From positions 1 through 64,000 of the forward strand of contig NZ_FWFG01000101.1 of assembly GCF_900163655.1 (NCBI RefSeq): a DNA stretch of 64,000 nt. The letters run 5' to 3'. Below, one piece after another: positions 28,938 to 44,444 of this stretch (position 1 is the first letter of the stretch; each line of letters opens with the position of its first letter). The notes beneath the pieces were generated by a model that was not told where the DNA came from, searched no databases, and saw only the letters and a list, made by a program, of their open reading frames with translations. This DNA is from Brachybacterium nesterenkovii. GTDB taxonomy: Bacteria; Actinomycetota; Actinomycetes; Actinomycetales; Dermabacteraceae. Made by a program: the position numbers and the translations under genes.

Positions 28938-30149
28938 TCAGCGCGCAGGACGCGCTAGACGCGCAGCATGCGCCGGTGGTGCCGTGCCGCGGCCGAGCTC
29001 CGCTCCCGCCGAGCCAGCCCAGTTCGATGCAGGCGGTGCCTCGGCTCCGGCGCGGAGGAAGGAGCGCTGCAGCGCCGAGAGGAATCGCTGGGGCCGGGCG
29101 ATGTCGGCGGCCGTGGCATACCGCAGATCCCAGCCGACGGATGCGGGGGCGTCACGACGGCGCTCGTCCGCGCGCCACTGGTCACGACCGGTCCGATGGT
29201 ATTCGCCCTGGTACTCGATGCCGATCAGCAGGTGCGCATACCCGAGGTCGATGCGGCGGAGGTGCCCGGGGGCGTCGGGGTCGGGCACGACGATGTCCGG
29301 CGTCGGCTCAGGAAAGCCGGCTCGGGTGATGAGCAGGCGCAGGCGGGTCTCCCCGGGCGATGCGACGCGCGGTCGGGCCAGAGCGAGGGCGTTCCGCGCA
29401 GCAGGAGATCCGTGACGCTGCTCGCGCCGTAGGATCTCCCGCATGTCGACGGGCGGCAGGTCCGGGACGGGGCTCGCCTCACCGAGCAGATGGTCGGCCA
29501 CGGCGACGAGGTCGACGAGAGGCAGAGCAGTGCCCAGCTGCCGAAGCACCTCGACGGGGTGCGACACGACCAGGCCCTCGATGGAGACCGTCTGCCCGGG
29601 GTGTGACCGGTGCACGCGGACGCCGGGCCCCGCGCTGTGGGAGCCGCCGGGCGGGACGATGCAGTGCAGCGGGGGAGGGGTCCAGGCAGGCGTGGGCTCG
29701 AACGACGAGGACGCGGCGCGAGGGGACGCGGCAGGCTGGGATGCGGCAGGCTGGGACGCGGCGCGCGGGGACGCGGCAGGCTGGTGGAGCGCCTCGCCGC
29801 GCCGGGCGTCGGGGCTGGCCTCGGGGAGGCGCGACGGGGTGATCCGACCCTGGGTCGTGCGTCGTGTGCGCTCCCCGAGCAGGCCGATGCCGCCGTCGAA
29901 CCACCAGGGCAGGGGAAGGCCGTGCAGGGAGGCGGCCGTGCTGTGGCTGATGACGCGCCCCGGCAGGACATGCGTCTGGAGCCGGTGGCACATCGCGGTG
30001 AGCGAAGCGGGCTGTGCGGTGGGCGTGTAGACGCCGGGGAAGATGCGCGTCAGGTCCGGTCCGGAGAGCCGCTGCGTCGAGACCCCGCGGGCGATCCAGT
30101 CGGCACGGCTCAGGAGTGCCCCGGGCGGGAGAGGGGTTGTGCGCGGCAT
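28938..30149 (-). CDS. AbiEi-like winged-helix / DUF559 nuclease-fold protein
   Basis: A 403-residue protein. The N-terminal part (PGALLSRADWIARGVSTQRL to VFPGVYTP-like, then VISHSTAASLHGLPLP) resembles the winged-helix region of AbiEi-type antitoxins and related actinobacterial proteins. The C-terminal domain (RRIDLGYAHLLIGIEYQGEYHRTG and DERRRD) has the D...E.x.G..H pattern of DUF559, a Vsr-like PD-(D/E)XK endonuclease fold. The centre holds an Ala/Ser/Gln/Pro run encoded by 15-bp repeats (29708-29782). No toxin partner gene is adjacent. Biochemical role unknown. The two homologous palindromes IR4 and IR5 frame the gene. Confidence 0.75.
   Translation of the reverse strand: MPRTTPLPPGALLSRADWIARGVSTQRLSGPDLTRIFPGVYTPTAQPASLTAMCHRLQTHVLPGRVISHSTAASLHGLPLPWWFDGGIGLLGERTRRTTQGRITPSRLPEASPDARRGEALHQPAASPRAASQPAASQPAASPRAASSSFEPTPAWTPPPLHCIVPPGGSHSAGPGVRVHRSHPGQTVSIEGLVVSHPVEVLRQLGTALPLVDLVAVADHLLGEASPVPDLPPVDMREILRREQRHGSPAARNALALARPRVASPGETRLRLLITRAGFPEPTPDIVVPDPDAPGHLRRIDLGYAHLLIGIEYQGEYHRTGRDQWRADERRRDAPASVGWDLRYATAADIARPQRFLSALQRSFLRAGAEAPPASNWAGSAGAELGRGTAPPAHAARLARPAR
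29708..29782. repeat. 15-bp degenerate tandem repeat inside the DUF559 gene
   Basis: Five or so units of GACGCGGCAGGCTGG and variants encode SQPAA/SPRAA repeats on the minus strand, between the N-terminal and nuclease-like domains. Confidence 0.8.
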
Positions 30150-30156
30150 GTCCCGG

Positions 30157-30162
30157 ACGCTA
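30157..30162 (-). promoter_or_regulatory. -10 element, leaderless start of the DUF559 gene
   Basis: On the minus strand TAGCGT lies 7 bp before ATG 30149. IR5 lies about 90 bp further upstream. Confidence 0.5.
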
Positions 30163-30251
30163 CGGCGGAGGGCGGCTGCGCGGGCAGGGGGCGATACGCG
30201 GTGGGGACAACGGGTGCCTGTGGAGGCATGGCGACGCGCGGCCTGCGCACG

Positions 30252-30307
30252 GTTGTGTCCGTTTCCGTGTACATGACGCGCGTCGTGTACACGGAAACGG
30301 ACACAAC
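30252..30307. repeat. palindromic element IR5 (homologous to IR4)
   Basis: Arms 30252-30272 and 30287-30307 are 21 nt and perfectly complementary (GTTGTGTCC, GTTTC, CGTGTAC). The 14-nt centre is itself mostly self-complementary (GACGCGCGTC, 30275-30284), so the element is almost one continuous palindrome. Confidence 0.95.
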
Positions 30308-30376
30308 GCTGCGGGCGGCTCAACGGGGCGCGACCGGGGCGACGGTGGCGCCGACCGGCTCAGCGCGCCCGCAGCG

Positions 30377-32692
30377 TCACCACTCCAGGACGGCCCAGCG
30401 CTTCTTCTTCGCGACCGCGTACAGCCCCAGGTCCGGGGAGACCGCCGACGGCGTGCCGACGAGCTCGAGCCAGGCGGCGTCGGCGTGGGAGTCGCCGTAG
30501 CCGTAGGACTTCTTCAGGTCCGCACCGACGCGGCCGGCGTACTTGCGCAGCCAGTTCGCGCGGGCCTCGTCGACGAGCGGCGGGGTGGCGAGGTAGCCCG
30601 TCATCACCCCGTTCTCGTCCTCGTGCATGTGCGTGGCGACGACCTCGTCGAACAGGTCCGCGAGCGGCTCGACCAGCACGTCGAGCGCGCCCGTCACCAG
30701 CACGGTGCGGTGCCCCGCCCGCCGGTGCTGCTCGATGAGCTCGAGCGCCTCGGGGCGGATCGACGCGCGGATGCGCCGGCCCAGCTCCCCGGCGAGCAGC
30801 TCGCGCAGCTCGGCCGTGCGGAAGCCCTGGTAACGGCGGTTGACGGAGCGGATGAACTCGGAGCGGTCGCGGCTCTCGGCCCGCAGGTAGCCGGGGAGGG
30901 CGCCCGCGAGGTTGCCGATCTCGGCCGGCCACTGGCGGCGCGGCTTCGTGGCCTTCACGACGTCGAGGTACTGCTGGACGATGTTCGTCGCGACGACGGT
31001 CCCGTCAAGGTCGAACACGGCCAGGACGTCGGAGCCCTCGGGCATCGCGGCGGCGGGGCGCTCGGCGCGCGTGCTCAGCGCGGCCTTGCGGCGCGAGTAC
31101 GCCTTGGTCAGCTCCGTGACGGCCGGCAGGTGCAGCTCGCGGAAGTAGGTCTGCCAGTCCAGGTCCGCGATGTCGAAGTCGAAGGCGGCGCGGTCCACGC
31201 CCTCGACGGCGCCGGCGACGCCCTCGGCCGACGTGCCGCCGGCGAGGAACGCGGCGGGCAGCTCCTCGCGCAGGGCGCGCGTGTTCGCATCGTCGAAGAC
31301 CATCTCCGTCTTCGTGTACTGGCGGTACAGGTCGGTGTACTTGCGCAGGCTCGCCAGCCCCGAGGCGTTGCGATGCAGAGTGGAGGTCCAGGTGCGGGTG
31401 CGCCGCGTCGCGGGCAGGCGGGAGACGGCCATCTGGCCGGCCTTCGTCGCGAGCTCCTTGAGGCGGAAGCGGACGTCGACCATCTCGACGGCGGGGAAGT
31501 CCCACTCCGGCACGATCACCGGCTCGCCCTTGTCGTCCTCGAGGGGGTTGTCCACGAAGTAGCCGCGCACGGCCGTGACCATCTCGTGGAACGGCAACGG
31601 GTTGGTGTTGCCGGAGACCACCTGGAAGTAGGCGTCGTCGCCGCGGCGTGACACCGGCTGGGTCGCGAGCGCGACGATCACGTTGACCACGAAGTCGACG
31701 GGGATGATGTCGAGGATCGAGTCGGCCAGGCCCGGGAACTCGGGCAGCAGGCCGCGGCCGTAGGCCATGATCAGCGGGTCGGCGACCTTGTAGCCGTCGA
31801 TCCAGCCCGGGTAGGGGCGGCGCAGCGCCGACTCGATGATCGAGGGGCGCACGAAGGAGACGCGGTGGCCGGAGCCCGCCCACAGGTCCTCGGCGACGCG
31901 CTCGGCCATCGCCTTGGTGAACGTGTAGATGTCGGTCCAGCCGACGGACTGCGCGCGCAGGCGCCCGTAGTCGACGAGGCGGTCGTGGACCCAGCTGCGG
32001 CGCGCGTCCTCCGCGGCGGCGGCCACGGCCTTAGGGCCCATCTTCCCGTCGCGCACGCGAGCCTTGAGCATCTGCGAGCGCAGGGCCTCGGGCAGGCGGG
32101 ACTCGGCGTCGACGCGCTCCCGGGCGGCGAGGGCCGCGTCGTGCTCGGCGCGCCAGTCGACGTCGTGGACGAGCGCGCCCTCCTGGCGCAGGCCCTTGGA
32201 GATGCCGCCGACGTACGCGGTGGAGACGTGGATGACGTGCGGGTCCTGGCCGGAGGCGAGCAGCGCCTCGTAGAGGTTGCGGGCGCCGCCGACGTTGGTG
32301 CGGAAGGCCTCGTCGATCGGCGGGTCGAACGATACCGAGGACGCCGAGTGGATGACGGTGTCGACGTGCTGCGTGATCGGAGGCATGTCCGTGAGATCGC
32401 CCTCGAGGACGTCGACGCGCTCGTCGAAGGCGGCGCGGGCCGTGCCCTCGCCGGCGCGCTCGTCCCAGGAGGCGAAGACGGGCTTGCGCAGGAGGCCCTC
32501 GAGGCGCTTGCGGCCGGTCTGCGCGCCCTTGGGGCGGATCACGACGGTCACCCGCACGCGCGGGAAGCTCTCGAGGAGCGCCTGGAGGACGGCCTGGCCG
32601 AGGAACCCGGTGACGCCGGTCAGCAGGATCTGCTGGTCCGCGGGCGGGGCGGCGGGGGCGACGTCGCTGGTCTGATCAGTGGTCTTCGACAT
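30377..32692 (-). CDS. fatty acyl-CoA reductase (SDR) fused to HAD-IB phosphatase
   Basis: A 771-residue two-domain protein. Residues about 20-450 form an extended SDR of the fatty acyl-CoA reductase / NAD_binding_4 type, with TGVTGFLGQAVLQALL for the dinucleotide, VIHSASSVSFDPPIDEAFRTNV, VSTAYVGG and the catalytic YTFTK (about residues 255-259). Residues about 550-745 are a HAD-IB phosphatase with VFDLDGTVVATN, LVTGALDVLVEPLA and GYGDSHADAAWLE. The first domain should reduce acyl-CoA to fatty aldehyde or alcohol; the second could dephosphorylate a lipid or glycerol-phosphate intermediate (inference). It is divergent from the SDR-PlsC-AGPS genes, with which it likely works in ether-lipid or wax precursor formation. 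Confidence 0.85.
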   Translation of the reverse strand: MSKTTDQTSDVAPAAPPADQQILLTGVTGFLGQAVLQALLESFPRVRVTVVIRPKGAQTGRKRLEGLLRKPVFASWDERAGEGTARAAFDERVDVLEGDLTDMPPITQHVDTVIHSASSVSFDPPIDEAFRTNVGGARNLYEALLASGQDPHVIHVSTAYVGGISKGLRQEGALVHDVDWRAEHDAALAARERVDAESRLPEALRSQMLKARVRDGKMGPKAVAAAAEDARRSWVHDRLVDYGRLRAQSVGWTDIYTFTKAMAERVAEDLWAGSGHRVSFVRPSIIESALRRPYPGWIDGYKVADPLIMAYGRGLLPEFPGLADSILDIIPVDFVVNVIVALATQPVSRRGDDAYFQVVSGNTNPLPFHEMVTAVRGYFVDNPLEDDKGEPVIVPEWDFPAVEMVDVRFRLKELATKAGQMAVSRLPATRRTRTWTSTLHRNASGLASLRKYTDLYRQYTKTEMVFDDANTRALREELPAAFLAGGTSAEGVAGAVEGVDRAAFDFDIADLDWQTYFRELHLPAVTELTKAYSRRKAALSTRAERPAAAMPEGSDVLAVFDLDGTVVATNIVQQYLDVVKATKPRRQWPAEIGNLAGALPGYLRAESRDRSEFIRSVNRRYQGFRTAELRELLAGELGRRIRASIRPEALELIEQHRRAGHRTVLVTGALDVLVEPLADLFDEVVATHMHEDENGVMTGYLATPPLVDEARANWLRKYAGRVGADLKKSYGYGDSHADAAWLELVGTPSAVSPDLGLYAVAKKKRWAVLEW

Positions 32693-32798
32693 GCTGGAGG
32701 CTCCCGGGGACGGTGCTGCGCGATCGCTGACGGACCGCCGCGCGATGCTGCTCGGATGCTGCTCGGGAGTCGCTCCCGGCGCTGGTCAGCGCCGCGCT

Positions 32799-32808
32799 AG
32801 TGTACCGT
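32799..32808. promoter_or_regulatory. overlapping divergent -10 elements
   Basis: On the plus strand TACCGT (32803-32808) is 6 bp before the SDR ATG (leaderless). On the minus strand TACACT (32804-32799) overlaps it by two bases and points to the reductase-HAD gene. One short site could therefore open both directions of the lipid locus. Direct repeats GATGCTGCTCGG lie just beside it. Confidence 0.45.
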
Positions 32809-32814
32809 AGCCGC

Positions 32815-33600
32815 ATGCACAGGGCCCTGATCACCGGTGGCACATCCGGCATCGGAGCCGCATTCGCGACCGCCTTCGCACGCCGCGGCGTGGACCTCGT
32901 CCTGGTCGCGCGGGACGAGAACCGGCTGCAGGAGTCCGCGGCCGCCCTGCGTCGCGAGTACGGCATCGACGTGGAGACCATCGCCGCCGACCTCTCCGAC
33001 CGCGACCACCAGCAGCGCGTGGCCGATCGCCTCGAGGCCGCGGATGCCGAGCACCCCGCGATCGACGTGCTCGTCAACAACGCAGGCTTCTCCGTCCGCA
33101 CCGAGCTGACCAGCGCGGACATGACCGAGCACGACCGCGGCTACGAGGTCATGATGCGCTCGGTGATCCTCCTGTCGGCCGCCGCCGCCCGCGCGATGAC
33201 GGCCCGGCATCAGGGCTGGATCATCAACGTCGGCTCCGTGAGCGCGTTCGTCACCCAGAACAACTACTCCGCGATCAAGTCGTGGGTGAACTCGTACACC
33301 GAGGCGCTCCACGTGCAGCTCGAGGGCACGGGCGTGCAGGTCACGCTGCTCGCCCCCGGCTGGGTCCGCACCGAGTTCCACTCCCGCGCCGGCATCAAGG
33401 GGTCCTCGATCCCCGGCTTCCTGTGGCTCACGCCCGAGCGCCTCGTCGAGGAGTGCCTGCGCGACGTCGCCCGCGGCCGCGCCGTCTCCATCCCCTCCAA
33501 GCGCTTCCAGGTGCTCGTGGCGCTCGCGCGGGTGGCGCCGCGCGCGGCGATCCACCGGGTCAGCTCGGTGCTCTCCTCGCGGCGCAGCAGGGAGCGCTGA
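32815..33600 (+). CDS. classical SDR reductase, candidate acyl/alkyl-DHAP reductase
   Basis: A 261-residue short-chain dehydrogenase. The NAD(P) loop is ALITGGTSGIGAAF (residues 4-17), the structural NNAG is near residue 86, the catalytic Ser is in NVGSVSAF (about 140) and YSAIKSW gives Tyr-Lys (about 151-155). It resembles NADPH-dependent acyl-reductases of the DltE/YqjQ type. In its setting, before a PlsC acyltransferase and an alkylglycerone-phosphate-synthase homologue, reduction of the keto group of alkyl-DHAP is the most economical role (inference); fatty-aldehyde reduction is an alternative. The gene ends 5 bp before the PlsC start. Confidence 0.88.
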   Translation: MHRALITGGTSGIGAAFATAFARRGVDLVLVARDENRLQESAAALRREYGIDVETIAADLSDRDHQQRVADRLEAADAEHPAIDVLVNNAGFSVRTELTSADMTEHDRGYEVMMRSVILLSAAAARAMTARHQGWIINVGSVSAFVTQNNYSAIKSWVNSYTEALHVQLEGTGVQVTLLAPGWVRTEFHSRAGIKGSSIPGFLWLTPERLVEECLRDVARGRAVSIPSKRFQVLVALARVAPRAAIHRVSSVLSSRRSRER

Positions 33601-33605
33601 CGCCG

Positions 33606-34430
33606 ATGGCAGGCTCCGACCAGCGCGGCGCGACCGGCGACGGGACCGCGGCCCGCCCCCCGCAGCCCTCGCTCTCCTCGCCGGCGCGCGCACAGGGCTT
33701 CGACCTGTCCGATGAGCGCCTGGCGGTCTACCGCTCGCGCTGGCGGGCGGGAGTGCGCTGGTTCATCCAGCGCGTCGTCTTCCGCGCGGTGCTGAACTCG
33801 GCGGTCACCCCGAGCGTCGAGGTCCACCGCCGCGTGCGCACCATCCGCGGCCCCTTCGTGCTGGTCTCCAACCACACCAGCCACGTCGACGGGCCGCTGC
33901 TGGCGATCAGCCTCCCGTGGAGCCAGGGCCGACTGCTCTCGACGGGCGTCGCCGCGGACTACTTCTTCCGCGTCTGGCATCGCCGCACGTTCGTGCGCTG
34001 GATGCTCAACGCCTTCCCGATCGACCGCGACGGCTCCCGCAAGAACTCCGGCACGTCCCGGCGCCTGCTGCGCTCGGGCGTGCCGATCCTCGTGTTCCCC
34101 GAGGGCGGGCGCCAGCAGACCGGCGTGATGGGGAGCTTCAAGCCGGGGGCCGCGGCGCTCGCCGCGAACGTGGGCGTGCCCCTCGTGCCCGCCGCGATCA
34201 TCGGCGGCCACGAGGCGATGCCCAAGGGCCGCAACTGGCCCAAGCCGGGGCGCCCGCCGGTGAAGGTCGTCTTCGGCGAGCCGCTCGTGGCCGCCCCCGA
34301 CGAGTCCGTCACCGACTTCAACGACCGCATCCGCGCGGCCGTCGCCGATCTCTACGACACCCACCGCGACGCAGTCCTCGGACCGCGCCCGGCGCCCGCA
34401 CCGGACCCGCACGACAGGAAGGCGGACTGA
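33606..34430 (+). CDS. PlsC-type 1-acyl-glycerol-3-phosphate acyltransferase
   Basis: A 274-residue membrane-associated acyltransferase. The catalytic HX4D motif is in VSNHTSHVDG (about residues 89-94), the glycerol-phosphate-binding motif is FPEGGRQQTG (about 163), and VPLVPAAIIGGHEAMPKG follows. It transfers an acyl chain from acyl-CoA or acyl-ACP to a lysophosphatidate-like acceptor. Between the SDR and AGPS genes it would acylate sn-2 of 1-alkyl-glycerol-3-phosphate, or first acylate DHAP (inference). It follows the SDR after 5 bp and precedes the next gene by 2 bp, so the three genes form one operon. Confidence 0.9.
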   Translation: MAGSDQRGATGDGTAARPPQPSLSSPARAQGFDLSDERLAVYRSRWRAGVRWFIQRVVFRAVLNSAVTPSVEVHRRVRTIRGPFVLVSNHTSHVDGPLLAISLPWSQGRLLSTGVAADYFFRVWHRRTFVRWMLNAFPIDRDGSRKNSGTSRRLLRSGVPILVFPEGGRQQTGVMGSFKPGAAALAANVGVPLVPAAIIGGHEAMPKGRNWPKPGRPPVKVVFGEPLVAAPDESVTDFNDRIRAAVADLYDTHRDAVLGPRPAPAPDPHDRKAD

Positions 34431-34432
34431 CG

Positions 34433-36202
34433 ATGGACCGCAGCACGAGGACCGCTCCCGCGGGGACGCCCGCTATCCCGAGCACGGGCCCCTGGCCGGC
34501 CCCGGCCTCGGGCCGCGAGGTCAAGCGCCACAAGTGGTGGGGCTGGGGCCTGGACGACGTCGCGTTCCGCTGGGACAACAAGCCCGCGTTCCCGCCGTTC
34601 GCCAAGGACAAGATCGGCCTGGACCTCCACGAGCTCGAGCAGCGCCCCGAGCCGGAGCTGTCGGCGTACGAGGTGCCCGCGAGCCGCCTGGGCGAGCAGA
34701 CGCGCGCGCGACTGGTCGAGCTGCTGGGCGAGGACAACGTGCTGGTGGACGACGAGATGCGCGTGGTCCACTCCTTCGGCCGCTCCGTCACCGACCTGTT
34801 CCGGGTGCGCACGGGCGACTTCGAGCGCATCGTCGACGCCGTCGTCTACCCGCGCACTGAGGAGGACGTGCAGGCGATCCTGCGCCTCGTCCTCGACGAG
34901 GACCTGGTGCTGATCCCCTTCGGCGGCGGCTCGTGCATCTCCGGCTCCGTCACCCCGGATGTCGCCGAGCAGCGCCCCGTCGTGACCGTCAACCTGGGGC
35001 GCATGCGCGCGGTGCTGTCGATCGACGAGACCTCCGGGCTGGCCCGCGTCGAGGCCGGCGCCTACGGGCCCGACCTCGAGGACCAGCTCAACGCCGAGGG
35101 CTGGACCCTGGGCCACTTCCCGGACTCGTTCAACTACTCGACGCTCGGCGGCTGGGCCGCGACGCGCTCGACAGGCATGCAGAGCGACAAGTACGGCGAC
35201 ATCGCCGACATCGTCCGCGGCCTGCGCCTGGCCCACCCGCGCGGCGTCCTCGCCGTCACCGCCCTGCCGGGACAGTCCGACGGGCCGAGCATGCGCGAGC
35301 TGGTGCTCGGCTCCGAAGGGCGCCTGGGCGTGATCACCGAGGTCACCGTGCAGGTGCACCGCCTGCCGGCGCAGCGTCAGGTGATCGCCTACATGTTCCC
35401 CGACTGGGAGCACGGCATCCGCGGTATGCACGCGATCGCCCGCGCCACCGACGTGTTCCCCACGTTCACGCGCCTGTCCGACGGCCCCGAGACCGCGTTC
35501 TCGCTGTCGATGGTCAAGGAGCCGACGTCGACCAAGGGCAAGGTGGCCGGGAAGGTGCAGGACGGCCTGTTCGCCTACCTGCGGCGCAAGGGCTGGAACA
35601 CCGACGGGGACATGTGCATCGCCTACGTGTGCTTCGAGGGCTCGAAGGAGTCCGTGTCGCGCCAGGAGAGCACGGTCAGGGGGATCGTCAAGCGCAACGG
35701 CGGCATCTCGCTGGGCGCCGGCCCGGGCGCGATCTACGACCAGAAGAAGTTCGACACCCCGTACCTGCGCGACTTCCTGCTCAGCTACGACGTGTTCGGC
35801 GACGTCTCGGACACCGCGGCCCCGTGGTCGCGCCTGAACGAGATGCACACCGAGGTCATGGCGGCGGGGCAGAAGGCGCTCGACGATATGGGCCTGACGG
35901 GCTTCATGTTCTGCCACATGAGCCACAGCTACCACTCCGGGGCCTGCCTGTACTTCACGTTCGCCTTCCCGTACTCCTCGAAGGAGCGGGCGCTGGCCGA
36001 GTACACGACCCTCAAGCACGCGGTGCAGCAGGCCTTCATCGACCACGGCGGCACGCTGAGCCACCACCACGCGGTGGGCACGGAGCATCAGCCGTGGATC
36101 GAGGACGACATCACGCCCGTCGGGGTCTCGATCCTGCACGACGTGTTCTCCGCGAGCGACCCGGGCCGCAACCTCAACCCGGGCAAGATCATCACGCCCT
36201 GA
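34433..36202 (+). CDS. alkylglycerone-phosphate synthase-like FAD enzyme
   Basis: A 589-residue flavoprotein of the VAO/FAD_binding_4 family with strong AGPS character. Seen are the FAD loop IPFGGGSCISGS (about residue 162), PDSFNYSTLGGWAATRSTGM followed by YGDIADIV, GSEGRLGVITEVTVQVH, and near the C-terminus GTLSHHHAVG, matching the AGPS histidine motif, then a closing DPGRNLNPGKI. AGPS replaces the acyl chain of acyl-DHAP by a fatty alcohol, creating the ether bond. The neighbouring acyl-CoA reductase would supply the alcohol. A different FAD oxidase (D-lactate or glycolate type) is less likely because the GGW.ATR and HHH.VG motifs are specific. Confidence 0.88.
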   Translation: MDRSTRTAPAGTPAIPSTGPWPAPASGREVKRHKWWGWGLDDVAFRWDNKPAFPPFAKDKIGLDLHELEQRPEPELSAYEVPASRLGEQTRARLVELLGEDNVLVDDEMRVVHSFGRSVTDLFRVRTGDFERIVDAVVYPRTEEDVQAILRLVLDEDLVLIPFGGGSCISGSVTPDVAEQRPVVTVNLGRMRAVLSIDETSGLARVEAGAYGPDLEDQLNAEGWTLGHFPDSFNYSTLGGWAATRSTGMQSDKYGDIADIVRGLRLAHPRGVLAVTALPGQSDGPSMRELVLGSEGRLGVITEVTVQVHRLPAQRQVIAYMFPDWEHGIRGMHAIARATDVFPTFTRLSDGPETAFSLSMVKEPTSTKGKVAGKVQDGLFAYLRRKGWNTDGDMCIAYVCFEGSKESVSRQESTVRGIVKRNGGISLGAGPGAIYDQKKFDTPYLRDFLLSYDVFGDVSDTAAPWSRLNEMHTEVMAAGQKALDDMGLTGFMFCHMSHSYHSGACLYFTFAFPYSSKERALAEYTTLKHAVQQAFIDHGGTLSHHHAVGTEHQPWIEDDITPVGVSILHDVFSASDPGRNLNPGKIITP

Positions 36203-36221
36203 CGCGGCGCTCCCGACGCCC

Positions 36222-36262
36222 GCATGACGAAGGCCCCGCCCTGGGCGGGGCCTTCGTCATGC
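36222..36262. terminator. bidirectional terminator between AGPS and MFS genes
   Basis: Perfect 19-nt arms (36222-36240 and 36244-36262, GCATGACGAAGGCCCCGCC) with a 3-nt loop. It separates the convergent lipid and creatinine regions. Confidence 0.85.
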
Positions 36263-36288
36263 GCGAGGGGCCGAGGCCCGAGGTGCGG

Positions 36289-37116
36289 TCAGGCCGACTC
36301 CCTCCGCACGAGCTCGGGGACGCCGATGGCGACGAACGGCATCGGCTCCCCGGCCAGGATCGCCTCGACCGAGGCGGGGGAGTCCTCGAGGCGCGTGCGG
36401 ATGTAGCGGCCGATGAGCCCCATCGGGGCGGCCAGCAGGAACGGCAGGCGCCAGCCCCAGTCGACCATCTGCTGATCGGACAGCGTCGCCGTGAGCAGGG
36501 CGGCGATGAGGGAGCCGAGCAGCAGCCCGGTGGCCGTGGAGGCGGGGACCATCGCGGCGTAGATGCCGCGACGGTGCGGCGGGGCGTACTCGACGAGGAA
36601 GGCGGAGGCGCCGGCGTACTCGCCGGAGGCCGAGAAGCCCTGGACCAGGCGCAGGATGAGCAGGGCGATCGGGGCCAGGATCCCGATCAAGGAGTAGCTG
36701 GGGATGAGGGCGATGAGGAACGTTGCGCCGCTCATGATGAGGATGGACCAGCCCAGCGCCGCGCGGCGCCCGAGGCGGTCGCCGAGGTAGCCCCAGATGA
36801 AGCCGCCGATGGGGCGGACGATGAAGGAGATGGCGAAGATCGCGAAGCTCGAGAGGAGCTGGGTGGCGCGGTCGGCCTCGGGGAAGAAGGCGGCGCCGAT
36901 CGTGGCGGCGAGGTAGCCGTAGGCGGCGTAGTCGAACCATTCGACGAAGTTGCCGATGAAGCTGGCCTGGAGCACCTTGCGGCGTGTGGCGGGGTCGATG
37001 CGATGCGGCATGTGCCGTCCGCTGAGCGTGTCGTAGCCGTCGTCCGACGGCGGCGGCGCTGTGGGGACCCGGCTCGCGGGGGAGGGGCGTGCGGGTCCAG
37101 GGGGCATGGCGCTCAT
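36289..37116 (-). pseudogene. half MHS-family transporter (C-terminal half missing)
   Basis: 275 residues containing only the first six helices of an MHS-type MFS carrier: VLQASFIGNFVEWFDYAAYG, IWGYLGDRLGRRAALG, RLVQGFSASGEYAGASAFLVE and RLPFLLAAPMGLIGRYIRTRLEDSP. A full carrier has about 430 residues; here the frame ends shortly after the central loop with an unrelated tail (EPMPFVAIGVPELVRRESA). The start has a good ribosome site (GAAGGAGG) and an operator copy at 37159-37183, so it was probably once the creatinine or creatine importer of this locus and is now a remnant. A functional half-transporter is possible but unusual. Confidence 0.7.
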
Positions 37117-37158
37117 GGCGCCTCCTTCGGTGTGGGTGCGGCACTGCATCCGGTATGC

Positions 37159-37183
37159 GTTGCGCAGAAGGCAACGACGTTGC
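37159..37183. promoter_or_regulatory. creatinine-regulon motif, copy 1
   Basis: 25 bp: GTTGC, 3 nt, GAAGG, CAAC, 4 nt, TTGC. It lies 43 bp before the transporter start. On the minus strand it contains TTGCCT, which could serve as a -35 box with GGATGC 17 bp on. Confidence 0.7.
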
Positions 37184-37240
37184 ACGAGAGTGCACTCTGA
37201 CGTCTCTGGCGTCAACCCTGCGACCGCGCTCCGGATGCTC

Positions 37241-37269
37241 TTGACGGGCCTCGGGGCTCGTGGTCTCAT
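37241..37269 (+). promoter_or_regulatory. candidate creatinase promoter
   Basis: TTGACG (37241-37246), 17 bp, then TCTCAT (37264-37269). Transcription would begin near 37276, just before operator copy 2. The -10 box is poor, as expected for a regulated promoter. Confidence 0.35.
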
Positions 37270-37352: not shown

Positions 37353-38618
37353 ATGACCGCCCAGAACCCGAACACCGCCCCCGCCACGTCCGTCGCCGAC
37401 CTCGAGCGCCTCAAGGTGCTGCACATCGGCGAGAAGCAGCAGCTGACGTTCTCCGACGCAGAGTTCGAGCGCCGCCTGGCGGGCCTGCGCGAGATCATGG
37501 CGGCGAAGGACCTCGACGCGGTGATCCTCACCAGCTATCAGGGCATCAAGTACTACAGCGACTTCCTGTTCACGTACTTCGGCCGCAGCTACGCCATGGT
37601 CGTCACCGCCGACGACACCTGCACCGTGACCGCCAACATCGATGCCGGCATGCCCTGGCGCACCAGCTACGGCGAGAACATCGTCTACACCGACTGGCAG
37701 CGCGACAACTTCTACTACGCCCTCCAGCAGGTCCTCGCCGAGCGCGGCATCACCAGCCCGAAGCGCCTGGGCATCGAGGACGACACCGTCCCGATGCTGA
37801 TCCGCCAGCGTCTCCAGGACGCCTTCGAGGGCGCGGAGCTGGTGGACGTCTCCCAGGACGCCATGCGCCGGCGCATGATCAAGTCGGCCGAGGAGATCGA
37901 GGTCATCAAGCACAGCGCCCGCATCGGCGACCTCGGCGGCGAGGCCGTCCGCGCGGCGGTCCACGAGGGCGTGCCGGAGTACGAGGTGGCGCTCGCCGGG
38001 ACCCAGGCGATGACCCGTGCGATCGCCAAGACCTTCCCCCACCGCGAGGTGCGCGACACCTGGGTGTGGTTCCAGTCGGGCATCAACACCGACGGCGCCC
38101 ACAACTGGGCCACCACGCGCCAGGTCCAGAAGGGGGACATCCTCTCCCTGAACTGCTTCCCGATGCCCACCGGCTACTACACGGCCCTCGAGCGCACCCT
38201 GTTCTTCGGCGAGCCGGACGAGGAGTCGCTGCGCCTGTGGAACATCAACGTCGAGGTCCACCGGGCGGGCATCGAGCTCATCAAGCCCGGCGCCGTCTGC
38301 AAGGACATCGCCGCCGCCCTCAACGAGATCTACATCGGCTACGGGCTCCTGCCCTACCGCACCTTCGGCTACGGGCATTCCTTCGGCGTGCTGTCCCACT
38401 ACTACGGGCGCGAGGCCGGGCTCGAGCTGCGCGAGGACATCGACACCGTGCTCGAGCCCGGCATGGTGGTCTCGATGGAGCCCATGATCACGATCCCCGA
38501 GGGGCAGCCGGGCGCCGGCGGCTACCGCGAGCACGACATCCTCGTGATCGGGGAGGACGGGGCCGAGGACATCACGATGTTCCCCTTCGGACCCGAGCAC
38601 AACATCATCAGCGCCTGA
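37353..38618 (+). CDS. creatinase (creatine amidinohydrolase)
   Basis: Hydrolyses creatine to sarcosine and urea; 421 residues, the usual length plus a short N-terminal leader. The N-terminal creatinase domain has TSYQGIKYYSDFLFTYFGRSYAMV and ENIVYTDWQRDNF. The C-terminal pita-bread domain has TWVWFQSGINTDGAHNWATT, KGDILSLNCFPMPTGYYTALERTLF, FGYGHSFGVLSHYYGREAG and VSMEPMITIPEG, agreeing closely with Pseudomonas creatinase as I remember it. The metal ligands of M24 aminopeptidases are not conserved, as expected for this hydrolase. It follows a GGAAGAGG ribosome site and stands beside the IclR regulator and creatininase. Confidence 0.94.
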   Translation: MTAQNPNTAPATSVADLERLKVLHIGEKQQLTFSDAEFERRLAGLREIMAAKDLDAVILTSYQGIKYYSDFLFTYFGRSYAMVVTADDTCTVTANIDAGMPWRTSYGENIVYTDWQRDNFYYALQQVLAERGITSPKRLGIEDDTVPMLIRQRLQDAFEGAELVDVSQDAMRRRMIKSAEEIEVIKHSARIGDLGGEAVRAAVHEGVPEYEVALAGTQAMTRAIAKTFPHREVRDTWVWFQSGINTDGAHNWATTRQVQKGDILSLNCFPMPTGYYTALERTLFFGEPDEESLRLWNINVEVHRAGIELIKPGAVCKDIAAALNEIYIGYGLLPYRTFGYGHSFGVLSHYYGREAGLELREDIDTVLEPGMVVSMEPMITIPEGQPGAGGYREHDILVIGEDGAEDITMFPFGPEHNIISA

Positions 38619-38708
38619 GGCGCTGCGGGGGCCGCGGCGGGTGAGGACACGCCCCCGCCGCCGGGCAGCGACCGGTTGCGGACACGCCCCCGCGGCCGGA
38701 TGAGGAGA

Positions 38709-38746
38709 GGCCGCGGACGGAGCGGGATCACCCTCCGTCCGCGGCC
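38709..38746 (+). terminator. terminator after creatinase
   Basis: 14-nt complementary arms (GGCCGCGGACGGAG, 38709-38722, and 38733-38746) with a 10-nt loop. Just upstream GGACACGCCCCCGC occurs twice (about 38645 and 38678). Confidence 0.7.
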
Positions 38747-38841
38747 GCGGCGCGTCGCGGACCCCTGTCGGAGGGCGGCTCTGCATCCCGGGGCGGACGC
38801 GCTCGAGGCGCTCTCCGCACCGCCCCGCAGACCAGGAGGGA

Positions 38842-38847
38842 TAGGGT
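38842..38847 (+). promoter_or_regulatory. -10 element, leaderless start of the IclR gene
   Basis: TAGGGT lies 6 bp before ATG 38854. Confidence 0.5.
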
Positions 38848-38853
38848 CTCGCC

Positions 38854-39648
38854 ATGCCCACCACCGCCACCGCCCGCAGCGCCCAGGACCAGCGCGGCGG
38901 CTCGGTGATCGCCAACGTCTTCGAGGTCCTGCGCTGCTTCACGAGCGACGCCCCCGACCAGGGTGTCACCGAGATCGCGCGCCGCGTCGGCCTCCACAAG
39001 TCCTCCGTCTCCCGGATCCTGTCCACCCTCGAGGCCGAGGGCATCGTCGAGCGCGACGAGCGGACCCGCCGCTACCGCCTGGGGCTCGGACTGATCGGGA
39101 TCGCCGCTCCGCTGCTCGCCTCGCTCGACGTGCGCCGCATCGCGGTGCCCGAGCTCGTGGCCCTGCGCGACCGCACCGGCGAGACCGCGGCGCTGACCGT
39201 CTGGGACGGCCAGGAGTCCGTGTCGGTCGAGCAGGTCGCGAGCAAGCGCAACGTCAAGCAGACCTCGGCGCTGGGCTCCCGCTACGGGACCGGCCTCAGC
39301 GCGAGCGTGCAGGTGTTCTGCGCCCAGGAGGAGGAGTCCCGCGTGCGGGAGCTCCTCGCGCGCGGCGATCTGGGCTTCGACGAGCCGATGGATGCGGAGG
39401 TCTACCTCGAGCGGCTCGAGGAGGTGCGGCGCACCGGCTTCGCCCTGAACGACGGCGAGACCCTGCCCGACGAGGCCGCGGCCGCGGCGCCCGTCCTCGA
39501 CCACCGCGGTCTGTGCGTCGGAGCCCTGCTCCTGGCCGCCCCGCGCTTCCGCGTCTCGCGCGCGCAGCTGGAGGAGCTCGGGATGCAGACCCGCGCGGCC
39601 GCCGACGCCGTCAGCCGGCGCATGGGGGCCGACGTCCCCCGCCGCTGA
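38854..39648 (+). CDS. IclR-family transcriptional regulator
   Basis: 264 residues. The N-terminal winged helix is visible as VIANVFEVLRCFTSDAP, GVTEIARRVGLHKSSVSRILSTLEAEGIVERDERTRRYRLG. The C-terminal IclR effector domain follows (LRDRTGETAALTVWDGQESVSVEQ to PVLDHRGLCVGALLLAAPRF). It lies between creatinase and creatininase, so the likely ligand is creatinine, creatine or sarcosine. The 25-bp motif found before the transporter, creatinase and BCCT genes is the best candidate for its binding site (inference). It is transcribed on its own from a leaderless promoter. Confidence 0.9.
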   Translation: MPTTATARSAQDQRGGSVIANVFEVLRCFTSDAPDQGVTEIARRVGLHKSSVSRILSTLEAEGIVERDERTRRYRLGLGLIGIAAPLLASLDVRRIAVPELVALRDRTGETAALTVWDGQESVSVEQVASKRNVKQTSALGSRYGTGLSASVQVFCAQEEESRVRELLARGDLGFDEPMDAEVYLERLEEVRRTGFALNDGETLPDEAAAAAPVLDHRGLCVGALLLAAPRFRVSRAQLEELGMQTRAAADAVSRRMGADVPRR

Positions 39649-39660
39649 CGGCGTCGCGCC

Positions 39661-40500
39661 TCAGCCCGCGGCCGCCCCTGCCGTCCCGTCGCCGAGCTCG
39701 GAGAGCAGCTCCGCCCCGAGGTCCGCGACGACCTGCTCGTGCAGGAGGCGCCCGCTGTCGGCGCTCGCCCCGATCGGGCTCGACAGGCATCCCGAGGCGG
39801 GAGTGCGCTCAGGGTGGATCGGGAGGCGGTCGAAGCGGCGCAGCTGCGCCGGCCCGTGGCTGGGGGCGCGGTCCATGCGCACCAGGCGCGGATGCAGATG
39901 CAGCATGAGGGAGGTCTCGAGCACGCCGCCGTGCTCCACGTCCCAGCCGCCGAAGCCGTCCGGGAACACCCGCCCGATGGTCTCCTCGCTCACGTAGTCC
40001 CAGTACGACAGGAGCAGGACGGCGGAGGCGTCCCGCGCCTCCGCATCGAGCTCCCGCAGGGCCAGATCGATCCCCTCGTACAGGAACTGCGTGTTCTCGA
40101 AGTGCCCGTTGACCAGCACGATCCGCCGCGCGCCCTGGCGCAGCAGGGAGCGTAGGACATCCTGGGTCTGGCCGATCAGCGCGGCGGCGTCCAGGCTCGT
40201 CGACCCGGTCAGGTGGTCGCCGCCGCCCGAGCGCTGCTGGGACTTGTAACCCCACGAGAAGGCGGGCATCACGAGGCCTCCGACGTGCTCGGCGGCCCCG
40301 CGCGCCATGGCATCGGCCAGCATCGCGTCCGTCCCCAGCGGGAGGTGCGGGCCGTGCTGCTCGGTCGCGCCGACGGGGATCAGCACGGGGGCGCCGGCGG
40401 CGAGGCGCTCGGCGAACGTCACGGCATCGATCTCGGCGGCGACGACGGCGCCCGCGCCCGGCGACGTCGGGGAGGCGGCGGGTCCGGTCCGGTCGGTCAT
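39661..40500 (-). CDS. creatininase (creatinine amidohydrolase)
   Basis: Interconverts creatinine and creatine by opening the ring; 279 residues. Family marks are PVGATEQHGPHLPLGTD (metal ligands Glu and His), FSWGYKSQQRSGGGDHLTGSTSLD, LVNGHFENTQFLYEGIDLALREL, LSYWDYV and FGGWDVEHGGVLETSLML. These residues distinguish true creatininase from the broader creatininase-like deformylases. The ATG overlaps the stop of the BCCT transporter gene (ATGA), so uptake and the first catabolic step are cotranscribed. It is convergent with the IclR gene. Confidence 0.94.
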   Translation of the reverse strand: MTDRTGPAASPTSPGAGAVVAAEIDAVTFAERLAAGAPVLIPVGATEQHGPHLPLGTDAMLADAMARGAAEHVGGLVMPAFSWGYKSQQRSGGGDHLTGSTSLDAAALIGQTQDVLRSLLRQGARRIVLVNGHFENTQFLYEGIDLALRELDAEARDASAVLLLSYWDYVSEETIGRVFPDGFGGWDVEHGGVLETSLMLHLHPRLVRMDRAPSHGPAQLRRFDRLPIHPERTPASGCLSSPIGASADSGRLLHEQVVADLGAELLSELGDGTAGAAAG

Positions 40501-42268
40501 GACTGCACGCTCCCGTGCTTGAGGGGGATCCCGTCGGCGTCCACGTGCTCGTCCTCCGGCAGCGGGCGGGGATCGTTGATGGTCTTCTCCAGCTTCTTGA
40601 CCTCGCGGTTGCGCTTGCGCAGGCGACTGACGAGGTTGGCGATCATCAGCAGGATCACGAACGTGAAGGGGAAGGCGCCGATGATGGTGCCCGTCTGGAC
40701 GGTGTCCAGTGCCGAGGTCCCGCCCATCGACAGCAGGGAGATCGCGACCGCGCTGATCGAGACCACGAGGACCACGCGGAACCAGGCGCCGGCGCGCTTA
40801 GGGGCGGAGACGAATGAGGCGAGCGCGTAGGTGCCCGAATCGAGGCTCGTCACGTAGTAGGTGGCCACCAGCAGGGTCGCGACGATCATCAGCACGGTCC
40901 CGACGATCGGGATCATGCCGAGCATCGAGAACAGGCCGCTCGAGGTGTCCTCGGCGACGTCCGCGGAGATCGAGCCGGAGCTCGTGGAGTCGTAGTAGAG
41001 GGCGGCGGAGCCGATCACGCCGATCCACACCATGACGATGAGCGAGGGGACGATGCACACGCCCAGGACGAACTCGCGGATCGTGCGGCCGCGCGAGATG
41101 CGGGCGATGAACCCCGACACGAACGGGGAGAACGCGATCACCCAGCACCAGATGAACACGGTCCACCAGCCGCTCCAGGAGTCCTCCCAGGAGGCGATGG
41201 ACCCCTGTGCGAGAGAGGCGTCGGTGAAGAAGCTCATCGGGACGAAGTGCGTGAAGAACGCCCCGAAGGTCTCCGTCATGGTCGAGAGGATGTAGACGAT
41301 CGGGCCGAAGACCAGCACGCCGACGACGAGCACGATCGAGAGGATCGAGTTGGCCTCGCTGATCCTCTTCATGCCCTTGTCGACGCCGAGGAAGGCGCTG
41401 CAGGCCGCGAAGGCGCCGAGGGCGAGCACGACTGAGATCCACAGCACCGGGGAGGCGGAGATCCCCAGCGCCGCGGACAGGCCCGAGCTGAACTGGATCG
41501 CGGCGAAGCCGAACGAGGTGGCCAGGCCCAGGACGGTGGCGATGATCGCGAGCAGCTCGACAACCACGCCCGCGGGCCGCTGCACGGCGCGGGGGAGGAT
41601 GTCGACGGTGGCCTCGCGGAAGGTGAGGGTCTTGCCGAGGTTGTGGTGGGAGTAAGCCAGGCACACGGCGACGATGCAGTACATCGCCCAGGCCGTCAGG
41701 CCCCAGTGGAAGTAGGACCATGCCATGCCCGCCGTGCCGGGGTTGGGGCCTGCGGGGATGACGGGGGCCTCCTCCTTGAGCATGATCGGCTCTGCGACGG
41801 ACCAGAAGATGAGGCCCACTCCCTGCCCGCAGGCGAAGAGCATCGAGTACCAGGCGAAGCTCGAGTACTCCGGTTTCGCCTGGGGGCCTCCCAGGCGGAC
41901 CTTCCCGACCTTGGCGAAGACGAGCCACAGGCACACGCCGGCTGCGGCGATCGAGTAGAGGACGAACAGCCAGGTGAAGTGCCGGGTCACGAGCGTCCGG
42001 GCGCTCGAGATGAGGTCGGCGGCACCACCGGGGTCGAGCACGACGGCGATGATCGCGGCCACGATCAGCAGCGGCGGCGCGGCGGTGATGACGGCGCGGT
42101 CGAGAGGCGGGATGATCCGGCCGCGGAAGCGGGGGAGAGGGACCTCGGCGGTGGCTCCGGCGGGGCCGGTGCCGTTGTCGGCGGCACCGCCGGGGGTGGC
42201 GCCCCGGGTGGGCCCGACGCGGAGTCGGGGGCCGTGGTCGGGGGAGGGGGCGAAGGCTTGCGCGTCAT
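40497..42268 (-). CDS. BCCT-family transporter (probable creatinine/creatine or betaine uptake)
   Basis: A 12-helix betaine/choline/carnitine-type carrier. From the first helix (ITAAPPLLIVAAIIAVVL) to the C-terminal KHGSVQS the match is complete, including FSFAWYSM-like SSFAWYSMLFACGQGVGLIFW, YFHWGLTAWAMYCIV and the signature WCWVIAFSPFVSGFIARISRGRTIREF. The N-terminus is unclear: the transporter frame has no ATG or GTG before helix 1 and stays open to a TTG at 42347, inside operator copy 3, while ATG 42268 (MTRKPSP) is in the neighbouring frame. I place the start at 42268 and suspect a frameshift or sequencing error between 42100 and 42250. Coupling to creatininase suggests creatinine or creatine as substrate. 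Confidence 0.8.
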
Positions 42269-42348
42269 GTCCAGTCCGTTCGTCGTGCGTCGTCGCGCGG
42301 TCGGGGCGGGAACGTCTCCGGTGCGATCGTCGGATACCAGCCTGCAAA

Positions 42349-42373
42349 GTTGCGGTGAAGGCAACACGATTGC
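42349..42373. promoter_or_regulatory. creatinine-regulon motif, copy 3
   Basis: 25 bp: GTTGC, 3 nt, GAAGG, CAAC, 4 nt, TTGC, about 80 bp before the BCCT ATG at 42268. It matches copy 2 in the internal TGAAGG and AACACG as well. Confidence 0.75.
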
Positions 42374-42467
42374 GCTGAAGTGTAGCGAGGGCGCGCGGCT
42401 TTGCCCACCCCCGTCTCGGACGGGGGCGGGTGGGGTGTCGCGGGGTTCCGCGCGGTCCGGCGCGCGC

Positions 42468-43148
42468 CTACAGGGCTGCGCGCAGCGCCCGCTCGAAGTG
42501 GGCCACGTGCTCGGCGGAGGTGGCCTCGGCCCCCTCGGCATCGCCGTCGAGGATCTGCTCGAGCAGGTCCGCGTGCTCGGCGATGTGCGCGGTGAGGTCC
42601 GTCAGGCGGTCGATCGAGACGCACCAGATGCGGGCGGCGATGTCGGCGTACCGCCCCAGGGTCTCGGCGAGGTAGTCGTTGCCGGTGGCGAGGTGGACCA
42701 GGCGGTGGATGCGCATGCCCATGAGCATGAGATCGCGCCGCGATCCCGATCGGGCGAGCGAGTCCGCGGAGAGCTCGGGCACGAGGAGCTCGATCTCGCC
42801 GCGCACGGCCCCGCCCCGCTTCTCGGCGGCGCGCCGCGCGGCGAAAGGCTCGAGCACGGAGCGGACCTCGGAGATCTTCGAGAGCTCGGTGATGTCGATG
42901 GTGGTGGCGAACGTGCCGCGGCGGGGGTAGGAGACGACGAGGTGGTCGCGCTCGAGCTGTTTGAGGGCCTCGCGCAGCGGCGTGCGCCCCAGGCCCAGCT
43001 CCGCCATCAGGTGCGACTCGTGGATCGGCTCGCCGGGGGCGATGTCGAGCAGGATCAGCCGATCGCGCAGCTCCCGGTAGGCGCGGGCGGACAGGGAGGA
43101 GCCGGCGGCGGACCCGGTGGACTCCTCGGGCGGCGCGGGAAGGCGCAT
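42468..43148 (-). CDS. GntR-family (FadR/FCD) transcriptional regulator
   Basis: 226 residues. The GntR winged helix is RAYRELRDRLILLDIAPGEPIHESHLMAELGLGRTPLREALKQLERDHLVVSYPRRGTFA. The all-helical FCD effector domain follows, with the usual metal-site residues (D/H in DLMLMGMRIHRLVHLATGN and HIAEHADLLEQI). A GAGGAG ribosome site precedes ATG 43148. It is divergent from glyA-soxBDAG, and the 16-bp palindrome at 43285-43300 is the typical size and symmetry for such a dimer, so it probably controls sarcosine oxidation in response to sarcosine, glycine or a related acid (inference). Confidence 0.9.
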   Translation of the reverse strand: MRLPAPPEESTGSAAGSSLSARAYRELRDRLILLDIAPGEPIHESHLMAELGLGRTPLREALKQLERDHLVVSYPRRGTFATTIDITELSKISEVRSVLEPFAARRAAEKRGGAVRGEIELLVPELSADSLARSGSRRDLMLMGMRIHRLVHLATGNDYLAETLGRYADIAARIWCVSIDRLTDLTAHIAEHADLLEQILDGDAEGAEATSAEHVAHFERALRAAL

Positions 43149-43284
43149 GGGTCTGCTCCTCGTCTCGGCGGTCAGGCCCTTCCTGGGGAGATCCTCGATC
43201 CGGTGCGCTCGGGGCGCGGCGAGGAGATCCGGAGTCCGGGAACCTGTTGACACTGTTTCCTCGGGCATCCTACCGTGAGCCCCA

Positions 43285-43300
43285 CCTTGATATATCAAGG
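43285..43300. promoter_or_regulatory. GntR-type operator before glyA
   Basis: CCTTGATATATCAAGG is a perfect 16-bp palindrome with an AT core that stands out in this GC-rich sequence. It lies 27 bp before the glyA ATG and opposite the divergent GntR gene. Confidence 0.75.
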
Positions 43301-43327
43301 CTCGACGACCATCGATGAGGAGCGTCC

Positions 43328-44443: not shown

Positions 44444-44444
44444 C

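Follow-up and report, generated by a model that had tools for sequence, protein, structure and literature searches.

The closest known counterpart of the locus described here is the Myxococcus xanthus gene group MXAN_1676-1674, which, in the excerpts of PMC9131029 on which we drew, encodes an alkyl-dihydroxyacetone phosphate synthase (AGPS), a fusion of FAR1-like and GNPAT-like domains, and an NAD-dependent epimerase/dehydratase. We analysed a 64,000-nucleotide stretch of the Brachybacterium nesterenkovii genome (hereafter the window), in which four genes encode a fatty acyl-CoA reductase (FAR) fused to a HAD phosphatase domain, a short-chain dehydrogenase/reductase (SDR), a PlsC-family acyltransferase and an AGPS homologue. 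As in the Myxococcus group, AGPS lies beside FAR, an acyltransferase and an NAD(P)-dependent reductase-type protein. Unlike in that group, FAR is fused to a HAD phosphatase, the acyltransferase is separate and no CarF-type desaturase was detected. The Myxococcus proteins were outside our alignments and were compared by their description in those excerpts.

Three other systems invite comparison. The same source outlines the eukaryotic pathway of FAR1, GNPAT, AGPS and PexRAP, with which the Brachybacterium locus shares the AGPS clade, catalytic residues and fold, and for which the same four activities are proposed here. The differences are that everything lies in one bacterial locus, that a PlsC-size acyltransferase stands in place of GNPAT, and that a HAD domain is added. 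The Myxococcus elbA-E operon, with the HAD protein ElbB and the multidomain ElbD (same excerpts of PMC9131029), likewise combines FAR-like, acyltransferase and HAD parts, but the four Brachybacterium genes include no multidomain ACS/ACP protein. Bacterial anaerobic plasmalogen synthesis by the pls genes (Jackson et al. 2021, as cited in PMC9702350) yields the same product class, ether glycerolipids, whereas this route acts on a finished diacyl lipid.

We consider it highly likely that the Brachybacterium locus makes alkyl-acyl ether glycerolipids by the animal-type route through dihydroxyacetone phosphate (DHAP). We infer each reaction and the final lipid from homology, catalytic residues, clade, predicted fold, linkage and co-occurrence. 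The source genome comprises 3.02 Mb in 119 contigs and is 99.98% complete. The window lies on our contig C10, and the locus was taken as four genes:

30377..32692, minus strand: FAR-HAD, with NAD_binding_4 at residues 24-339, HAD-IB at residues 557-754, and the motifs GVTGFLG, YTFTK and DLDGT.
32693..32814, no strand: divergent intergenic region between FAR-HAD and SDR, defined by the open reading frame (ORF) boundaries.
32815..33600, plus strand: SDR of 261 aa, proposed alkyl(acyl)-DHAP reductase, with the motifs TGGTSGIG and YSAIK.
33606..34430, plus strand: PlsC-family acyltransferase of 274 aa, proposed DHAP acyltransferase, with the motifs NHTSHVD and FPEGGR.
34433..36202, plus strand: AGPS (alkyl-DHAP synthase) homologue of 589 aa, assigned by sequence, tree, residues and predicted fold.

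The original prediction had placed four genes at 30377-36202 with FAR divergent and had pointed to AGPS motifs; all four genes were found there, and GGWAATRSTGM, SEGRLGVITE and SHHHAVG are all present. It had also seen exactly the eukaryotic gene set, which is true only approximately: the locus comes close to that set, with one clustered acyltransferase for two acylations and with the C-terminal HAD-IB domain of FAR, which had gone unmentioned, as an extra. SDR and PlsC are 5 nt apart, and PlsC and AGPS 2 nt. A GTG at 32800 is also possible as the SDR start; the first residue given here (32815) is where the tblastn alignments start in 16/16 loci fetched from the genus. Pfam matches above cut-off were FAD_binding_4 and FAD-oxidase_C in AGPS, Acyltransferase in PlsC, adh_short in SDR, and NAD_binding_4 and HAD in FAR-HAD.

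In the proposed pathway, FAR would make a fatty alcohol from an activated fatty acid, and the clustered PlsC-family enzyme would acylate DHAP to acyl-DHAP. On the FAD of AGPS, the fatty alcohol would then take the place of the acyl chain to yield 1-alkyl-DHAP, whose ketone the SDR would reduce to form 1-alkyl-glycerol-3-phosphate; the sn-2 position would be acylated by a housekeeping PlsC. The HAD domain might act on alkyl-acyl-glycerol phosphate; if it belongs to the pathway, removal of the phosphate would leave alkyl-acyl-glycerol for glycolipids or another head group. As first proposed, the products would be 1-alkyl-2-acyl lipids, and they would be made under air.

The best sequence matches of the flavoenzyme in the PDB were Dictyostelium AGPS (2uuu, 2.7e-100) and guinea-pig AGPS (4bby, 3.5e-86), and the next family, D-lactate dehydrogenase (LDHD, 1.7e-20), followed about 65 orders of magnitude behind. 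An AlphaFold2 model built from 30 sequences (pLDDT 87.0; residues 1-22 unreliable) superposes over residues 25-587 on mammalian AGPS with a Z of 43.6 and a root-mean-square deviation of 1.9 Å across 540 residues at 30% identity. Eleven AGPS entries occupy ranks 1-11 of the fold search (Z 39.8-43.6) and align from residue 25 or 26. The other 39 entries listed, among them D-lactate dehydrogenase (Z 35.1, from residue 86), do not exceed Z 35.1, and their alignments start no earlier than residue 80. The predicted fold is therefore that of AGPS, including an N-terminal part that, among the entries listed, aligns only with AGPS entries.

A phylogenetic analysis agreed with this assignment. The tree (LG+C20) held 52 rows: the window protein, two eukaryotic AGPS rows and 49 of 96 locus-derived rows. 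It placed the window AGPS in a 27-row clade with both eukaryotic proteins (support 97/86), together with actinobacterial cluster proteins and rows from Acidobacteriota, Verrucomicrobiota, Planctomycetota and Gemmatimonadota. The rest of the AGPS side consisted of one archaeal-labelled row and a 16-row AGPS-like group (88/75) from Mycobacteriaceae, Microbacterium, Brevibacterium, Parvibaculum, myxobacteria, Chloroflexota and others. Five glycolate-oxidase-like (GlcD) rows and three other FAD-oxidase rows fell outside, beyond a separating branch with support 86/74. The protein thus sits inside the AGPS clade, apart from both the glycolate oxidases and the AGPS-like group; a position outside it was what the original prediction had named as its refutation.

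Active-site residues pointed the same way. By the PDB alignments, R347, R446 and Y507 of the window protein are the equivalents of Dictyostelium R352, R447 and Y508, which the available excerpt of PMC3509576 reports as important for catalysis. R347 and Y507 also match the positions changed in the guinea-pig entries 4bc7 (Arg419His) and 4bca (Tyr578Phe), and the histidines HHH 544-546 are kept. As far as the alignments tell, the catalytic Arg, Arg and Tyr with HHH are necessary for AGPS and not exclusive to it. Position 231, by comparison, does discriminate the eukaryote-holding clade from AGPS-like proteins in these rows: it is Asp in the window protein, in both eukaryotic rows and in the clade's remaining 24 rows, all bacterial. 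The 17 bacterial AGPS-side rows that fall outside the clade have Gln (16) or Glu (1) there, the FAD oxidases Gln and the GlcD rows Ala. The window AGPS presumably catalyses the exchange of acyl-DHAP with fatty alcohol. As a separate observation, the AGPS-like loci (L107, L110-L136) had no FAR, PlsC or SDR match at 70 bits in the flanks examined.

FAR scored 157.7 bits for NAD_binding_4 (cut-off 20.1) and had a near full-length PDB match (7eoz, residues 20-526, 6.1e-37), while its 'Sterile' domain stayed below cut-off (31.0 bits, 35.4 required). The fused HAD-IB domain (residues 557-754, about 30431-31024 of the window) carries the DLDGT motif and matches TIGR01490 at 109.7 bits against a cut-off of 98.3. 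A stand-alone HAD gene with 29% identity to this domain lies right after AGPS in Mycobacterium simulans (L087:5039-5698). The SDR, whose motifs are intact, is proposed to have the activity of an acyl/alkyl-DHAP reductase (Ayr1/PexRAP type); no DHAP-reductase model was among the 25 of 216 NCBIfam matches listed.

We then determined how the locus is organised elsewhere. A search for AGPS (threshold 1e-20) in 58 genomes, namely the source genome, 35 others of the genus and 22 of the order, found a match in 41, including 36/36 of the genus; the gene was split in two pieces in one genome (G022) and cut by a contig end in another (G006). The four genes kept the same divergent order in all 16 genus loci fetched, out of 35 other genus loci. 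Given this order and the PDB E-values of AGPS (2.7e-100) and FAR (6.1e-37), the locus is not chance. A genome from another family (G047) has the four genes all in one direction, at 43-54% identity, and three loci lack the four-gene set (L038, on a 7.1-kb contig, L039 and L040).

Among named genomes, we scanned the best 80 of 580 matches, of which 44 had 48-72% identity. Near AGPS, these 44 loci, many on short contigs, had SDR in 39, PlsC in 36, FAR in 26 and SDR with PlsC in 34; the M. simulans locus, which matches the HAD domain only, is not among the 26. When both 8-kb flanks were available (27 loci), SDR was present in 25, PlsC in 22 and FAR in 20. SDR, PlsC and FAR were all absent near AGPS in L076, L082 and L093. 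At the same threshold, the other 36 loci had PlsC in six, SDR in two, FAR in one and none of them in 29. Beyond Actinomycetota, PlsC was found near AGPS in Acidobacteriota (L101, L105), Verrucomicrobiota (L102, L103), Planctomycetota (L106) and a locus labelled only bacterium (L104), and FAR in Gemmatimonadota (L109). All six of these seven loci that were placed in the tree fall in the clade that holds the eukaryotic proteins.

Co-occurrence was assessed in 396 genomes of the order (thresholds 1e-40 for AGPS and FAR-HAD; only the best few candidates per genome scored). AGPS matched in 110 genomes, 74 of them strongly (≤1e-180) and 36 more weakly, with the line drawn after we had seen a gap between 2e-184 and 9e-122. 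FAR-HAD occurred in 81 genomes. Both strong AGPS and FAR-HAD were present in 74, AGPS only in 0, FAR only in seven and neither in 315 (Fisher 1e-72, ignoring kinship), against FAR-HAD in 2/36 of the weaker-AGPS genomes. Single members of genera g33 (G124), g21 (G163) and g7 (G243, G406) carry both genes, while relatives such as G361, G055 and G041 lack both, which points to several concordant gains or losses. In G078 and genus g28 (G060, G074), FAR lies elsewhere in the genome than AGPS, and the tie between the two is thus independent of adjacency. Linkage and co-occurrence back the pathway.

Several observations weigh against it. None of the four proteins is named by NCBIfam at the equivalog cut-off: the best match of the flavoenzyme is GlcD (122 bits, 568 needed) and that of the SDR is mycolate reductase (175 bits, 380 needed). 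The catalytic residues recur outside the AGPS clade: AGPS-like rows keep Arg347, Tyr507 and HHH nearly throughout (exceptions are Tyr347 in L110 and Gln545 in L039), R347, Y507 and HHH also occur in three FAD-oxidase rows, which carry Lys446 instead of Arg, and the five GlcD rows, with Glu347 and His507, nevertheless have Arg446. In the tree, support for separating the AGPS side from the outgroup is 86/74, and the guinea-pig protein has a long branch. A tree forced to join eukaryotic AGPS to the AGPS-like group plus the archaeal-labelled row is worse by 7.7 log units; the approximately unbiased (AU) test gave only p 0.038, and that alternative group was named after the tree had been seen. With this moderate support, the eukaryotic proteins likely, though not certainly, belong on the side of the window protein rather than with the AGPS-like group. 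Eighteen of the 44 named loci had no FAR close to AGPS, seven of them with both 8-kb flanks (L076, L079, L080, L091, L093, L095, L096), which include loci of Enemella, Tessaracoccus, Raineyella and Propionicicella (L079, L091, L095, L096). PlsC was missing from the stretch examined in 8/44 (L067, L068, L070, L074, L076, L080, L093 and, on a 3.1-kb contig, L082). In Myxococcus, disrupting AGPS caused only a slight drop in ether lipids, according to the excerpts of PMC9131029. Finally, the sole PDB match of PlsC is a lysophosphatidate acyltransferase (5kym), and its sequence cannot say whether it is a DHAP- or a lysophosphatidate-acyltransferase.

The points on PlsC bear on the most probable alternative. 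It keeps the pathway but assigns the clustered PlsC to the sn-2 acylation of alkyl-glycerol-3-phosphate, and the acylation of DHAP to a broad-specificity housekeeping enzyme. Besides 5kym and the loci in which PlsC is missing, it can draw on AGP_acyltrn as the best NCBIfam match of PlsC, although below cut-off (54.6 bits, 103 required; otherwise the sequence evidence is PF01553 and the H(x)4D motif), and on the three further PF01553 genes that bring the genome's count to four. PlsY (PF02660) had no match in the source genome; the control found it in 8/14 genomes, Corynebacterium glutamicum not being among those eight. This genome is 99.98% complete; its first glycerol-3-phosphate acyltransferase must be a PF01553 protein or belong to another family. 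With four PF01553 genes present, others than the clustered one can serve the normal pathway. Against this alternative, such housekeeping enzymes should supply sn-2 acylation, but presumably not acylation of DHAP. Moreover, PlsC lies near AGPS in L101, L105 and L106 with no SDR or FAR match in the stretch examined, and in Myxococcus the acyltransferase beside AGPS is a GNPAT-like domain fused to FAR (excerpts of PMC9131029). In a tree of 28 of the 50 PlsC rows collected (the genome's fourth PF01553 protein, L140, was outside the 50), the linked proteins separated (93/93) from four unlinked PlsC, of which the source genome contributed two; those from Actinobacteria grouped in one clade (98/93) and those from other phyla in another (99/99). 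We regard an sn-2 role of the clustered enzyme as a serious but less probable possibility, and lean slightly towards a role on DHAP.

The other two explanations fare far worse. That the flavoenzyme is a 2-hydroxyacid or similar dehydrogenase, in a cluster for another product such as wax esters or free fatty alcohols, would fit the fold and FAD domain common to glycolate and D-lactate oxidases, the mycolate-reductase match of the SDR and a FAR that could serve other lipids; it is very improbable in view of the E-value gap, the clade, Asp231, the N-terminal region aligned solely in AGPS entries, and FAR-HAD in 74/74 strong-AGPS genomes. Nor was a WS/DGAT above cut-off found in the genome for the use of FAR in wax-ester synthesis (best 10 bits, E 0.75), a weak result as the controls also gave none. 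We give equally little credence to a remnant cluster, or one dependent on genes missing here, that makes no ether lipid: our literature search, judged by titles and abstracts, found no ether-lipid report for Brachybacterium, but in the window all four genes have uninterrupted frames and complete motifs, AGPS is present in 36/36 genus genomes searched and the four genes are in every genus locus fetched.

We found neither a CarF/PEDS1-type nor a PlsA-type gene in the source genome, so the predicted final lipid of the animal-type route is a saturated alkyl ether, not a vinyl ether. The CarF/PEDS1 domain Lipid_desat (PF10520) had 0 matches at E≤1, with a weak control (1/14 genomes, none above cut-off). 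The HGD-D domain (PF06050), which we take to be part of PlsA, likewise had 0 matches at E≤1, with a control of 6/14 genomes, two above cut-off. On these results we also set aside an anaerobic PlsA-type and a CarF-type route. Ten neighbours of AGPS were scanned for extra pathway genes; those for luciferase-like, methylase, indigoidine-synthase-A-like, GNAT and TIM-barrel proteins, and two without matches, were set aside as not lipid-related, which left the diiron gene described next.

In 13 AGPS loci (L037, L063-065, L069, L071, L078, L081, L083, L086, L088-090), ferritin-like proteins of about 264 aa are encoded next to FAR, one in L088 and two in the other 12. Clusters in which the pair neighbours FAR come from Microbacteriaceae, Jiangellaceae, Brevibacterium and Kocuria marina; the pair flanks FAR in eight loci and lies on one side of it in L037 and L063-065. 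An example is:

L078:2417-3208 and 5569-6327, minus strand: ferritin-like pair beside FAR.

Residues E45, E76/E77, H80, E141, E171 and H174 of the first protein look like diiron ligands, and several ligand positions are replaced in the second paralogue. The model of the first protein (pLDDT 87.8) was closest to acyl-ACP desaturases (Z 18.5). R2-like oxidases came next (Z 16.3) and no Foldseek match reached E≤0.001, so any chemistry assigned to the diiron protein is tentative. This first protein was found in 54/396 genomes of the order, 47 with strong AGPS and seven without, and had no match at 1e-10 in the source genome. The pair is present in 22/27 Brachybacterium genomes of the order sample, on another contig or far from AGPS, and the two-gene unit away from AGPS was seen in L142, L143, L145-L152, L154 and L155. 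Because of its distance from AGPS in these 22 genomes and its presence in seven genomes without strong AGPS, we treat its link to ether lipids as no more than a lead. We think it unlikely that, in several lineages, the actinomycetotal animal-type locus is extended by such a pair, one member with metal ligands and one apparently without, acting on the ether lipid or its fatty alcohol and possibly forming a vinyl ether bond. If true, this would be an aerobic plasmalogen desaturase unrelated to CarF/PEDS1.

Consensus scans of the locus gave neither promoter nor terminator, and no sigma-70 consensus promoter in 32693-32814. Downstream of AGPS lies one further feature:

36221..36263, no strand: 20-bp hairpin between convergent genes, possible terminator (z -4.2).

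The hairpin, without a T run, separates AGPS from a convergent MFS transporter gene (36289-37269, minus strand). The latter encodes 326 aa only and seems to lack its C-terminal half, as its profile matches end at positions 196/452 and 181/347. Genes for an M24 peptidase (creatinase-like), an IclR regulator, a creatininase-family protein, SHMT and DAO follow in 37353-45659 (the scan left out ORFs between 40500 and 43319) and may have a part in creatinine/sarcosine use. Beyond FAR, the ORF at 28938-30323 (minus strand) had no NCBIfam match.

Earlier reports touch on parts of this picture. Black Sea metagenome-assembled genomes were reported to contain actinobacterial AGPS homologues (PMC11868695), genomes with FcrA plus AGPS were noted (PMC11948995), and alkyl-ether lipids were reported from propionibacteria (PMC11237483), which cites Pasciak 2003 for alkyl-ether glycolipids of Propionibacterium propionicum. 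In the open-licence literature we found no dimethyl-acetal report for Propionibacteriaceae and, judging by listings, no paper on the four-gene cluster in Brachybacterium or its order, although such a paper may exist. The metagenome survey used a 30% identity threshold for AGPS, which may mix AGPS proper with AGPS-like proteins (PMC11868695). The Asp231/Gln231 split and the linkage suggest a rule that separates the two.

Taken together, Brachybacterium very probably makes ether lipids by an animal-like route, and much the same gene set recurs in many related bacteria. In Myxococcus, where AGPS was tested by gene disruption, its share in ether lipids is minor in the excerpts of PMC9131029. Here AGPS is the only ether-bond candidate that we detected in a compact locus, which recurs throughout the Brachybacterium genomes searched. 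The locus offers a clean genetic test of whether the animal route yields ether lipids in bacteria, and its AGPS, FAR and reductase might provide bacterial enzymes for biochemistry.

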